41,234 nt of DNA, taken from a virus. A model generated the notes under the pieces. That model saw only the letters and a list, made by a program, of their open reading frames with translations, searched no databases and was not told the DNA's origin. The position numbers and the translations under genes were made by a program. The DNA is taken from positions 1 through 41,234 of IMG/VR virus record IMGVR_UViG_3300030117_006378; one strand, 5' to 3'. Shown one piece after another: positions 2,313 to 5,118 of this stretch; the stretch's first letter is position 1, and every line of letters starts with the position of its first letter.

Positions 2313-2603
2313 GTGGACCCTGAATCGGCACTCGGCGGGGGCGTTGTTGCAGCAATCGTTGTTGGGATGCGCCTAGCCGAACGATTCAGCGACAAACGAA
2401 ACCCGAAGCACAACGGTAACGGGTTAGCTAGCAAGCTAGCAGTTAACGAAGAAAAGCTAGAAGCGTTAAGTGACAGAGTTGACGATGTAAGCGACAAGAC
2501 GCGTGAAGCATTAAGCAACACTTATGAGATTATCCGAAGAATGGATATTCGAGACGCGGTTGAAAAAGACAGGAGAGAGCGTGATGATTCGAGGCAAGAC
2601 TAA
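2313..2603 (+). CDS. Membrane-anchored coiled-coil protein (spanin- or XhlA-like)
   Basis: 96 aa if translation begins at GTG 2313, just after the previous stop. An ATG 84 bases upstream is in frame but lies within the preceding gene and would add a Lys/Arg-rich segment that looks like read-through of that gene. Residues 6-22 (ALGGGVVAAIVVGMRL) form one membrane segment; the rest is a charged heptad-type helix (LASKLAVNEEKLEALSDRV). The topology and position beside a holin-like gene and a peptidoglycan enzyme suggest an inner-membrane spanin or XhlA-like lysis accessory. No family signature is certain. Confidence 0.65.
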   Translation: MDPESALGGGVVAAIVVGMRLAERFSDKRNPKHNGNGLASKLAVNEEKLEALSDRVDDVSDKTREALSNTYEIIRRMDIRDAVEKDRRERDDSRQD

Positions 2604-2817
2604 TGGACTCAAGTCGAGTGAGTTCTTAATGACTCTCCTGGGGATGGTCGGAGGCTGCCTCTGTGCAATCTTCTCCGACTCCCAATGGGCTCAAGTCGGT
2701 GGACCTATCCTTGCTGCCGTGTGTGGCGCTAGCTACTCTCAGTCCAGAGCCACAGTTAAGCGAGCCCTCGCCAGTGCGGAGGCTGTGTCACAGGTAAAAA
2801 AGTCGCCGGAGGCATAA
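2584..2817 (+). CDS. Holin-like small membrane protein
   Basis: 77 aa, starting at ATG 2584 after AGGAGAG (2571-2577) and overlapping the end of the previous gene. Two membrane segments are visible, about residues 15-30 (LMTLLGMVGGCLCAIF) and 38-53 (VGGPILAAVCGASYS), joined by a short loop with Trp, followed by a basic C-terminal helix. This is the size and topology of a two-segment holin, which forms the lethal inner-membrane hole at lysis. Near its end is an A_AAA_AAG heptamer in the phase needed for -1 frameshifting; the frameshifted product would be about 148 aa (see 2802-3029). Confidence 0.7.
   Translation: MIRGKTNGLKSSEFLMTLLGMVGGCLCAIFSDSQWAQVGGPILAAVCGASYSQSRATVKRALASAEAVSQVKKSPEA
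2796..2802 (+). promoter_or_regulatory. Candidate programmed -1 ribosomal frameshift site A_AAA_AAG
   Basis: The heptamer is in the correct phase (zero-frame codons AAA 2797-2799 and AAG 2800-2802). This is the slippery sequence of E. coli dnaX. A GGAGG (2778-2782) lies 13 bases upstream as a possible Shine-Dalgarno stimulator. A hairpin GGCAT/ATGCC (2811-2815/2821-2825) begins 8 bases downstream, and a second CCGTTA/TAACGG pair starts at 2824. All three parts of a bacterial -1 site are present. An undercalled A run would give the same picture. Confidence 0.6.
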
Positions 2818-3029
2818 GGGATGCCGTTAAGTCGAGGGACACGTCTAACGGTGCTTTTGATCTCGGCTTACGTGTTCTTGGGTCTGGCGCTTCTGAAGTA
2901 CGCGCCGAGGCCTTTGCGGAGATTAGCGGAGAGATTACTAACGGACTAAGTGCGTTCGTTGATGCGGGCGTAGAGATTAATGAGTCGCTAGATTGGCAGA
3001 CAACAGCGGGTCTGAAATGGAGGTTCTAA
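2802..3029 (+). CDS. -1 frame extension of the holin-like protein (75 codons)
   Basis: The -1 frame is open from 2760 to its stop at 3027-3029 and has no ATG, GTG or TTG anywhere; the only CTG lies near the end. It would be reached only by slippage at 2796-2802 or from a non-standard start. It encodes 75 residues that look like real protein: NGAFDLGLRVLGSGASEV and AFVDAGVEINESLDW alternate polar and apolar residues, and the chain ends TTAGLKWRF, a C-terminal aromatic with an alternating pattern as in outer-membrane beta-barrel signals. Its stop overlaps the next ATG as TAATG behind a GGAGG. The function is unknown; a link from inner to outer membrane at lysis is a guess. Confidence 0.55.
   Translation, partial: VAGGIRDAVKSRDTSNGAFDLGLRVLGSGASEVRAEAFAEISGEITNGLSAFVDAGVEINESLDWQTTAGLKWRF
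2821..2949 (+). CDS. Possible 42-aa membrane protein (alternative frame)
   Basis: An ATG 3 bases after the holin-like stop opens a 42-residue frame with one predicted membrane segment (LTVLLISAYVFLGLALL) and an Arg/Leu-rich tail. No good ribosome site stands before it, and it overlaps the more protein-like -1 frame completely. Its Leu/Arg bias is what an out-of-frame reading often gives. It is listed because restart after the holin-like stop is possible. Confidence 0.2.
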   Translation: MPLSRGTRLTVLLISAYVFLGLALLKYAPRPLRRLAERLLTD

Positions 3030-3595
3030 TGTTGCCACCAATCCTGGCGCGAAAGAAAGCGCTAGGGTACCCGGTCTTTGACGGCCAATACGATCTCAAT
3101 ATAGTCGGCATTCGCAAAGCAAACGGTATCCCAAATCAATTCGACGATATGGTTTCTTGCACGTATCGCAAGGACGGGCAGTGGGTTGCCCATTACTGGG
3201 CAGCTACTACGGACCCAGGCCAGTACTACCTATTAAATCCTCTACAAATTAAGGGGACGGCAATCCTGTGCCCAGGGCATTACCCTGGAGTGTGGGAGAT
3301 TGGCCTGCATGCTGGAAAATATGAGGCATTGTGTCAGCGAGGCGGGGAAGTAAGTGTCTGGCGGGATGCGGACAGAGACGCACAGTTAGACAAAGGCGGG
3401 AAAGTAGACACCGGGTTCTTTGGTATCAACCTGCACAAAGCAGGTGAGCGCAGCACAAGAGTTGACCGATGGTCAGCAGGTTGCCAAGTGCTCGCAAATC
3501 AGTCAGACTTTGAAGAGATGATGCGACTTGCGAGACTACAGATTGCAACAAACGGCTACGAGTCATTTAGCTACACGTTGTTGGAGGAATGGTGA
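3029..3595 (+). CDS. Lysis enzyme candidate with L,D-transpeptidase (YkuD)-like motif
   Basis: 188 aa from ATG 3029, preceded by GGAGG (3019-3023) and sharing TAATG with the -1 frame stop; the in-frame TTG at 2993 is less likely. Residues 133-155 carry the signature: His136 in GINLHKAG, then Ser149-x-Gly151-Cys152 in RWSAGCQV. This is the spacing of the YkuD catalytic His and SxGC motif. Family members cut or remake peptide bridges in peptidoglycan; in a phage lysis cassette the likely job is wall degradation. No signal peptide is visible, so export would depend on the holin. The rest of the fold cannot be confirmed by eye. Confidence 0.65.
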   Translation: MLPPILARKKALGYPVFDGQYDLNIVGIRKANGIPNQFDDMVSCTYRKDGQWVAHYWAATTDPGQYYLLNPLQIKGTAILCPGHYPGVWEIGLHAGKYEALCQRGGEVSVWRDADRDAQLDKGGKVDTGFFGINLHKAGERSTRVDRWSAGCQVLANQSDFEEMMRLARLQIATNGYESFSYTLLEEW

Positions 3596-3846
3596 TGCGA
3601 CCAGCGAGAGGTAAGGCCAAAGTAAAAAAGGTGGGGAAAAGAAAGGTCAGCTTTGGGCAAGCCGGCCCGGCGAAAGACGGAGGTCCGCGCGTAAAGCCTG
3701 GCACTTCAAAGGGCGATAGCTACTGCGCTCGCTCCCTCGGTATCAAGAAACGCCTGTCCAAGAAAAAGCAAAACGACCCCAACAGTCCAAACAACTTGTC
3801 TCGAAAGCGGTGGAAGTGTTCGGGTGCAAGGTCTCGGAGGAAGTGA
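3595..3846 (+). CDS. Small basic protein, conserved-looking, unknown function
   Basis: 83 aa from ATG 3595 in a TGATG junction, with GGAGG at 3582-3586; the ATG at 3589 sits too close to that site. It is very Lys/Arg-rich with a structured-looking centre (SKGDSYCARSLGIKKR, then NNLSRKRWKC). Two Cys (in SYCAR and KWKCSG-type contexts) do not form a clear zinc site. It is the first of a run of basic small proteins and could bind DNA or RNA. It also holds an in-phase A_AAA_AAG at 3624-3630, but the -1 frame there closes within about 30 codons. Confidence 0.75.
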   Translation: MRPARGKAKVKKVGKRKVSFGQAGPAKDGGPRVKPGTSKGDSYCARSLGIKKRLSKKKQNDPNSPNNLSRKRWKCSGARSRRK

Positions 3847-3847
3847 C

Positions 3848-3982
3848 GTGGCGGCAAACACCAAGAAGATTAAGAAGGTGATTAAGGGGCTAAACAAAGC
3901 CTCAAAGTCACACGCTGCACAGGCAAAAACTCTGAAGTCTGCAATCAGCAAGAAGCCTGTCAGAAGAAAGGCTAAGCGATGA
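3848..3982 (+). CDS. 44-aa Lys-rich small protein
   Basis: GTG 3848 follows GGAGG (3836-3840) at a good distance, directly after the stop of the previous gene. The product is 44 aa, begins MAANTKKIKKVIKGLNKAS and ends in KKPVRRKAKR; it is almost all helix-forming with about 14 Lys and Arg. The stop overlaps the next ATG (ATGA at 3979-3982). Tight packing and a good ribosome site support a real gene. Nucleic-acid binding is plausible from charge only. Confidence 0.7.
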   Translation: MAANTKKIKKVIKGLNKASKSHAAQAKTLKSAISKKPVRRKAKR

Positions 3983-4245
3983 CAAAGAAGGTGAAAAAAA
4001 AATCATCGGGCGGCGGCTCTGACGAGGCGTTTATCCGCAAGAAGGCAGCCGAGTCCGGCCACTCTCCTGCGACATTGCGCAAGGTTCTTAAGCGCGGCAG
4101 GGCTGCGTATCTTAGCTCTGGAAGCAAGTCAGCCTCCATGGCAGCTTGGTCTCGCGGGCGGGTAAACAGCTTTGTTCGCGGCTCTAAAAAGCACGACACA
4201 GACTTACGACGTGGCGGGAAAAGCGATGGCAGCAAAAAAACGTAA
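3979..4245 (+). CDS. Basic protein resembling the DUF5872-type family
   Basis: 88 aa. The segment SPATLRKVLKRGRAAY followed by AAWSRGRVNSFVRG (about residues 29-67) resembles a small conserved unit found in many phages and some large DNA viruses (DUF5872-like), where the function is unknown. The N-terminus is KKVKKKS and the C-terminus is Lys/Gly-rich. It overlaps the 3' end of the previous gene by 4 bases and the next gene by 20 bases. Family assignment is from memory of the pattern. Confidence 0.7.
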   Translation: MTKKVKKKSSGGGSDEAFIRKKAAESGHSPATLRKVLKRGRAAYLSSGSKSASMAAWSRGRVNSFVRGSKKHDTDLRRGGKSDGSKKT

Positions 4246-4429
4246 ACGGACTCAACCATACAAGCACGGGGTGCCGGCCAAGTATGTTGCAGGGGCTAAG
4301 AATCCAAGGGCCGCTGCGGCTGAGATGAAGAGCACGGCAGCCAAGTACAAGCGCGGCGAAAAGATTGACATCAAAGCCGTGGAGCGCGCTCGCGCTGCTA
4401 GCAAGAAGCGCAGGAAGAAAAAGGCGTGA
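4226..4429 (+). CDS. 67-aa basic small protein, unknown function
   Basis: ATG 4226 lies within the end of the preceding gene; the upstream in-frame ATG at 4172 would overlap it by 74 bases and is less likely. The product begins MAAKKRKRTQPYKHGVPAKY, has an Ala-rich helix in the middle and ends in KKRRKKKA. It is the fourth consecutive very basic protein. GGGAA at 4216-4220 may be its ribosome site. The function is unknown; DNA compaction or RNA binding would fit the charge. Confidence 0.7.
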   Translation: MAAKKRKRTQPYKHGVPAKYVAGAKNPRAAAAEMKSTAAKYKRGEKIDIKAVERARAASKKRRKKKA

Positions 4430-5118
4430 GCTTTCTGGTTGCAAACCTGCCGCTGGAGCCTGTCTTTGTTCGCAAGGAATTCCTGTACAACAACAAGAAG
4501 GGGCACGGTGAGTTTATCCGTGGGTACTGGGTGTCTGTAAAGGCCCAGAAGCACCGAGCGCTTTTGTTCGAAACCTTGCTTGAGGACGGCAGCCTGTACG
4601 ACAAGCTCCCTATTGAGGCCTTTGTTCACAAGACTGACGCATCAGTAAAATACAAGCAGTCAGACCTGGCGCTGTGGGACATGGATGGCTGGCACATTAC
4701 AACAATCGTCAAAGACTCACTTCGGCATCTGGACGCACGGGTGCGTATTGGCAACGACCTTGTCGGCGGTACGTATGTCTGCACAGTGGACCAGGCAGAC
4801 GCCGATGGTCAGCTGCTTACAACGTGCGCCAGCATCCCGAAGGAGCACAAGTCGCAGAACGTGATTGCCTTGGACAACGGGCAGTATTGCTCTATGCCAA
4901 ACAACAGGATTCTGTGGGTGGAGCAGTCGCTAACAAAGGTCGTTGGCCCTCCGGATTGGGAGGCCTGCGATGAGATATACTTTTCAAATACGTTAAGGAA
5001 TTACAGAGATGATGAAAAATGGTGGTATGAAGGGGATGGCAAAGAAGAAGGTGGCGCGCAAGGTGAAGAAGCGCACCGAAAAGAAGAAGATGCCAAACAA
5101 GAAGAAGGCACCGCCTAA
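4426..5118 (+). CDS. Conserved-looking phage protein, unknown function
   Basis: 230 aa, GTG start in a GTGA overlap with the previous stop. Residues 1-195 look like a folded, mixed alpha/beta protein rich in aromatic residues (FLYNNKKGHGEFIRGYWVSVK, split by a loop; later GHITTIVKDSLRH-type segments). The last 35 residues turn abruptly into a Glu/Gly/Lys-rich stretch that overlaps another reading frame (5009-5134). This tail may therefore be shaped by the overlapping gene. No catalytic motif was recognised. It closes the plus-strand cluster and runs up to a convergent gene. Confidence 0.8.
   Translation: MSFLVANLPLEPVFVRKEFLYNNKKGHGEFIRGYWVSVKAQKHRALLFETLLEDGSLYDKLPIEAFVHKTDASVKYKQSDLALWDMDGWHITTIVKDSLRHLDARVRIGNDLVGGTYVCTVDQADADGQLLTTCASIPKEHKSQNVIALDNGQYCSMPNNRILWVEQSLTKVVGPPDWEACDEIYFSNTLRNYRDDEKWWYEGDGKEEGGAQGEEAHRKEEDAKQEEGTA

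Follow-up and report, generated by a model that had tools for sequence, protein, structure and literature searches.

To our knowledge, the known cases of programmed frameshifting in tailed phages concern mainly tail-assembly chaperones, together with some structural genes. For the tail-assembly chaperone G/GT, a -1 frameshift was reportedly described in lambda and HK97 by Xu, Hendrix and Duda in 2004. As with G/GT, a -1 slip at an X_XXY_YYZ heptamer (G_GGA_AAG of the lambda type or the A_AAA_AAG class) would here give a short and a C-terminally extended protein; unlike G/GT, the locus belongs to a lysis cassette, encodes a transmembrane (TM) hairpin and has a skipped frame with a third conserved ORF. 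In Escherichia coli, dnaX undergoes a -1 frameshift at A_AAA_AAG with an upstream Shine-Dalgarno (SD) sequence. Both elements are found here, although the slip would yield a longer rather than a shorter product and the downstream hairpin is weak in the DNA analysed. One lysis gene with two products is also the situation of lambda S105/S107 and of the holin/antiholin of phage 21, in which two starts are used, whereas the products considered here would differ at their C-terminus by way of frameshifting. Finally, the overlapping lysis-cassette frames and the proposed link between inner and outer membranes are reminiscent of spanins (Rz/Rz1 and the u-spanin gp11 of T1), from which the locus departs by a predicted barrel anchor and by having neither lipobox nor lipid anchor. 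That a -1 frameshift can give a C-terminally extended phage protein is a known principle, as in the tail chaperones. The open-access papers searched yielded no lysis gene that uses it, no anchor-like extension and no dual-coded third ORF. An earlier note on this DNA had regarded frameshifting in holin genes as not well described and, in agreement, no published case of a frameshifted holin was found in the open-access literature, the word holin being absent from the accessible portion of the 2016 recoding review, PRFect 2024 and the 2013 frame-transition survey.

The locus is carried by a virus record of 41,234 bases (IMG/VR record IMGVR_UViG_3300030117_006378, positions 1-41,234), which is referred to as the window; the features of the locus are given in Table 1. 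In the ORF at 2584-2817 the slip codons are GTA AAA AAG, with the heptamer in phase. The -1 frame is open for 89 codons (2760-3026), contains no ATG, GTG or TTG in the window, and ends at a TAA (3027-3029) that is part of a TAATG located 3' of a GGAGG (3019-3023). The predicted fusion of the zero frame and the -1 frame is 148 aa long. The earlier note had listed the heptamer, its phase, the spacing of the upstream GGAGG and the offset of the hairpin, together with the startless open frame and the TAATG fusion behind a GGAGG, all of which were recovered at these coordinates in the window.

Table 1. Features of the lysis locus in the window, with the observations that bear on each
Feature	Position	Strand	Evidence
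Small cassette protein, N-terminal hydrophobic segment, predicted coiled-coil-like region	2313..2603	+	Also in relatives' cassettes
Holin-like two-TM ORF, zero frame, 77 aa, short product	2584..2817	+	TM segments, codon-position divergence.15/.07/.50
Internal SD-like GGAGG, 13 nt 5' of the slip site	2778..2782	+	48/60 loci vs 5.9% background
Slippery heptamer A_AAA_AAG	2796..2802	+	In-phase X_XXY_YYZ in 60/60 distinct loci
-1 frame extension, ca. 75 residues past the slip; stop TAA 3027-3029	2796..3029	+	Divergence, conserved residues, model
GGAGG, probable ribosome-binding site of ORF2	2808..2812	+	Sequence
Five-pair hairpin GGCAT/ATGCC, starting 8 nt 3' of the heptamer	2811..2825	+	z about -1.1
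ORF2, 42 aa, one TM, zero frame, overlapping the extension	2821..2949	+	Start, GGAGG, recoding test
Endolysin-like gene, 188 aa; ATG overlaps the extension stop	3029..3595	+	phrog_3000, phrog_33083

These elements had been interpreted as a programmed -1 frameshift with products of 77 and 148 aa. The conservation of heptamer, phase and layout supports this interpretation, and we put the probability that programmed -1 frameshifting joins the holin-like part to the extension at about 0.9; the picture was nevertheless incomplete, as the third, overlapping TM ORF (ORF2) had been missed. The earlier note had also likened the two products to those of dual-product lysis genes that time host killing; such timing may apply here, but the resemblance of the extension to an outer-membrane barrel anchor suggests a further role. 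In the scheme proposed, ribosomes would slip by -1 at the tandem-slippery heptamer, probably with stimulation by the internal SD sequence. The majority would terminate at 2815-2817 and release the two-TM protein of 77 aa, and some of those ending there could restart 3 nt further on and produce ORF2, a small TM protein; for slipping ribosomes, neither the holin stop nor the ORF2 start would take effect, and the 148-aa protein would result. From comparative evidence, we infer that this frameshifting takes place in cells. The heptamers concerned are known as shift-prone in E. coli (PMC5009743).

Relatives were initially collected from IMG/VR by searches with the two halves of the gene (holin-like part and extension), and they retain the two-frame layout; one weak match (L021) proved unrelated. 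IMG/VR was also scanned at the DNA level for the end of the extension only, using the pattern W.A.AGLK.[KR] followed by W or F and a stop, which takes no account of the holin, the heptamer or ORF2. Among the 62 stretches matched, two (L092 and L113) are without holin or heptamer and were counted as chance matches, 7 end at a contig edge before the slip site, and every one of the others carries a correctly phased slippery heptamer. After removal of duplicates, the distinct set amounts to 60 loci in 27 clades. In 60/60 loci, a holin-like gene with two TM segments has an in-phase X_XXY_YYZ close to its end, and the -1 frame is open from there on. Nine different heptamer sequences are represented, GGGAAAG (27 loci), AAAAAAG (20), GGGAAAC (4), AAACCCC (3), AAAAAAA (2) and, in one locus each, AAAAAAC, CCCAAAG, AAACCCT and CCCTTTA, while the pattern and the phase are constant; five loci have unusual heptamers (A_AAC_CCC/T or C_CCT_TTA). 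In L013, C_CCA_AAG is located at a different codon and an AAGGAGG has shifted along with it, 10 nt upstream. The comparison of homologues called for by the earlier note thus shows heptamer and two-frame layout kept in 60/60 loci through differing heptamers, with no homologue in which seven A's make a simple in-frame gene and none in which the two parts are separated, each having its own start. Several sequence types are represented among the N-terminal two-TM modules (MIKGKTNG..., MKPGIKTSEM..., MSDKMKSRK...), so that the extension occurs with different hairpins. No cultured relative was detected in INPHARED by DNA or protein, and a search of bacterial genomes with the holin gave no relatives. 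One contig of 68 kb (IMGVR_UViG_3300030099_006113) carries the entire cassette twice, in diverged versions (L008 and L009), and may correspond to two phages joined by assembly.

In the window's genes, the background rate of in-phase X_XXY_YYZ is 0.0029 per codon. With the protein sequences taken as fixed, ca. 11% of the clades would be expected to have a heptamer within their final 15 codons; one was observed in 27/27, these not being independent events since the clades are related. AAAAAA, GGGAAA or CCCAAA is found in the heptamers of 25 of the 27 clades, and a swap between AAAAAA and GGGAAA at one aligned site takes three coordinated substitutions. An SD-like motif (GGAGG or GAGG) lies 4-19 nt upstream of the slip site, mostly at 10-16 nt, in 48 of the 60 loci as compared with 5.9% elsewhere in the same ORFs, and the GGAGG at 2778-2782 is a probable frameshift stimulator. 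Downstream RNA structure is strong in L094 (z -5.3), L019 and L074, whereas the weak hairpin of the window is not significant alone and is not generally conserved; a role of a conserved RNA hairpin as general stimulator is not supported. In L094, a near-perfect long hairpin stands right behind the unusual heptamer A_AAC_CCC, as if strong structure compensated for a weak slip site.

Selection on the frames was assessed in twelve relatives of equal length from the divergence averaged over all pairs, taken separately for each zero-frame codon position (1/2/3), the third position of the -1 frame being zero-frame position 2. Values were 0.15/0.07/0.50 for the holin part, 0.18/0.20/0.27 where the extension and ORF2 overlap, and 0.07/0.46/0.15 past the ORF2 stop, the latter being the signature of the -1 frame. 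This switch from zero to -1 frame recurs clearly in clades C and D; in clade B it is clear towards the end of the extension, and it is less clear in clades E and F. Between the heptamer and the holin stop, divergence at the zero-frame third position is 0.22 versus 0.43 just upstream, an onset of constraint that reading of the -1 frame from the heptamer onward would predict. In all, three reading frames are under selection within ca. 450 bases at this locus.

The third of these, ORF2, has in the window its own ATG preceded by the GGAGG at 2808-2812, and encodes one TM segment. Its start lies exactly 3 nt past the holin stop in 48 of the 60 loci (34 ATG and 14 GTG). When the extension was recoded synonymously, with the window's codon usage throughout, a start at this place with a frame of comparable length and a TM-like segment arose in 0-1.4% of cases per clade, while the real ORF2 has them in 21 of the 27 clades. 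Recoding and divergence together thus indicate that the region is dual-coded for ORF2 and the extension, and led to the rejection of ORF2 as a shadow ORF. Candidate roles for its product are a second holin, an antiholin or other.

Explanations that dispense with frameshifting were weighed against these data. The heptamer of the window is a six-A run, a typical site for a sequencing or assembly error that would hide a true gene in one frame, but relatives have GGGAAAG, CCCAAAG or GGGAAAC in many independent contigs with an identical frame relation, and ORF2 requires the zero frame; as the heptamer varies while pattern and phase are constant, such an error is excluded for all practical purposes. 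The extension might instead be a separate gene for which ribosomes re-initiate over the holin stop on a codon other than AUG (ATA, TTG or CTG), with the heptamer incidental. Holin stops of the TGA type do provide an xTG codon in the -1 frame at this position and, unlike the window, some relatives have an ATG or a TTG in that frame soon after the heptamer (at +18 to +21 in several of them). No such codon exists, however, in the window or in clades with a TAA or TAG stop, the heptamer is present in 60/60 loci through several sequences, and constraint on the -1 frame starts at the heptamer. Re-initiation is therefore considered very unlikely, and a separate start was rejected as a general explanation on the basis of the start-codon survey and of the onset of constraint. 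There is scarcely any chance that ORF2, with its start codon, ribosome-binding site and conserved TM segment, is alone the genuine second gene, with the openness of the -1 frame as its by-product, since that frame runs past the ORF2 stop with a coding signature of its own and the extension has conserved residues and a confident predicted fold. Finally, a tail-assembly chaperone was rejected by context, the neighbours being a tail fibre and an endolysin and not a tape-measure or tail module.

As used here, holin-like refers only to the two TM segments and to the position in a lysis cassette. Two TM segments with a predicted N-in, C-in topology and a nearby endolysin fit a class II holin, as judged from hydrophobicity and charge only: positive charges flank the hairpin on both sides, its loop is acidic, and the second TM segment (TM2) is weakly hydrophobic. 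The two-TM modules had no match in Pfam, and their best match to a PHROG holin, for one module only, had an E value of 0.017. The downstream gene (3029-3595) matched phrog_3000 (E 5e-35) and the endolysin family phrog_33083 (E 5e-18) and no Pfam family; its product has an RWSAGCQ motif reminiscent of L,D-transpeptidase catalytic motifs. The nearby endolysin is of the phrog_33083 type in the window, whereas relatives have an M15 peptidase or an amidase, and these three types near the gene identify the region as a lysis cassette. An S74-type tail fibre is encoded upstream. No Rz1-type lipoprotein was detected in the window by a strict but crude scan, and no lipobox in the fusion or in ORF2.

Profile searches of Pfam, PHROGs and the PDB gave no reliable match for the extension. 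The AlphaFold2 model of the window extension, built with 43 relatives, had a pLDDT of 84.5 and consisted of strands throughout, in a beta-meander, while that of the L085 extension reached 91.2, with a helix at residues 2-18 and strands at 24-34, 37-48, 52-61 and 65-74. A Foldseek search of the PDB with the L085 model returned as its top five the membrane anchors of Hia (three entries), YadA and AtaA, with probabilities of 0.97-1.00 but E values of 0.045-0.10 that are not significant alone. Matches to the window model were more mixed, AtaA and Hia anchors occupying ranks 2, 3, 4 and 7, and its matches among viral structures included YadA-like anchors and cyanophage outer-membrane-like domains. 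All four strands are of membrane length and amphipathic, with alternating hydrophobic and polar residues. The predicted helix followed by four amphipathic strands and an aromatic C-terminus is as in the anchors of YadA, Hia and AtaA, from which the extension differs in having no profile match (none of 44 members matched the YadA anchor Pfam profile at E 0.1), no passenger and no signal peptide, and in being joined to an inner-membrane hairpin. The C-terminal pattern was also scanned in bacterial genomes totalling 257 billion bases, where none of the 16 matches had the holin and heptamer layout; three real bacterial genes among them, tested with Pfam, correspond to one autotransporter barrel and two TonB-dependent receptors. 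The end pattern being shared with these outer-membrane barrels, the C-terminus of the extension resembles an outer-membrane beta-signal. Judging from the models, the extension would resemble the outer-membrane anchors of trimeric autotransporters rather than belong to them.

The long form would therefore combine, as predicted, an inner-membrane hairpin with a beta domain resembling such an anchor, and we infer that it resides in the membrane. At somewhat less than even odds, it may act as a spanin-like link of lower copy number between inner and outer membranes when lysis is completed, and the frameshift would then set how much linker is made per hole-former. As the main difficulty for such a link, the N-in, C-in prediction derived from charge would put the extension in the cytoplasm. 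Speculative ways out are that TM2, being weakly hydrophobic, may not hold, or that the domain would enter the periplasm only after the holes have opened, which would couple both membrane steps. The same topology, predicted from the positive charges flanking the hairpin and from the acidic loop, would suit a reading in which frameshifting is real and adds a regulatory domain located in the cytoplasm. The long form would then be an antiholin, mixing with the short form to set the time of lysis. Its purpose would be comparable to that of the dual-start holins of lambda and phage 21, and dual-product holins are known as lysis timers (PMC9636201). Four membrane-length amphipathic strands and a beta-signal-like end would be unexpected in a soluble cytoplasmic domain, and we regard an antiholin as the main rival of the membrane link, though somewhat less likely than it.

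Returning to the membrane link, one may tentatively, and with some doubt, see in the long form an outer-membrane lysis protein of a new class, in which an inner-membrane hairpin with an oligomeric beta-barrel anchor would replace lipoprotein spanins, be made in fixed ratio to the hole-former and be decoded alternatively to ORF2. Of the 677 phages in a published survey, 91 lacked any recognisable spanin (PMC6139136), and the extension is a testable candidate for outer-membrane breakage in such phages. The frameshift layout is conserved in the lysis cassette of many uncultured phages, behind several two-TM sequence types, and an anchor-like extension on a holin-like gene suggests a new way to build and time the host-bursting machinery. 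As it can do without a start codon, the extension would escape standard gene callers.

Other genes of the cassette region were also noted. The protein encoded at 2313-2603 adjoins the holin in many relatives, and its charge suggests that, unlike in Rz, the C-terminus may be cytoplasmic. The product of 4426-5118 strongly matched phrog_3704, labelled ferredoxin (E 8e-54), with no Pfam match. Finally, a run of small, very basic, lysine-rich proteins is encoded 3' of the endolysin (3589-4429), and small basic proteins also trail the cassette in relatives.
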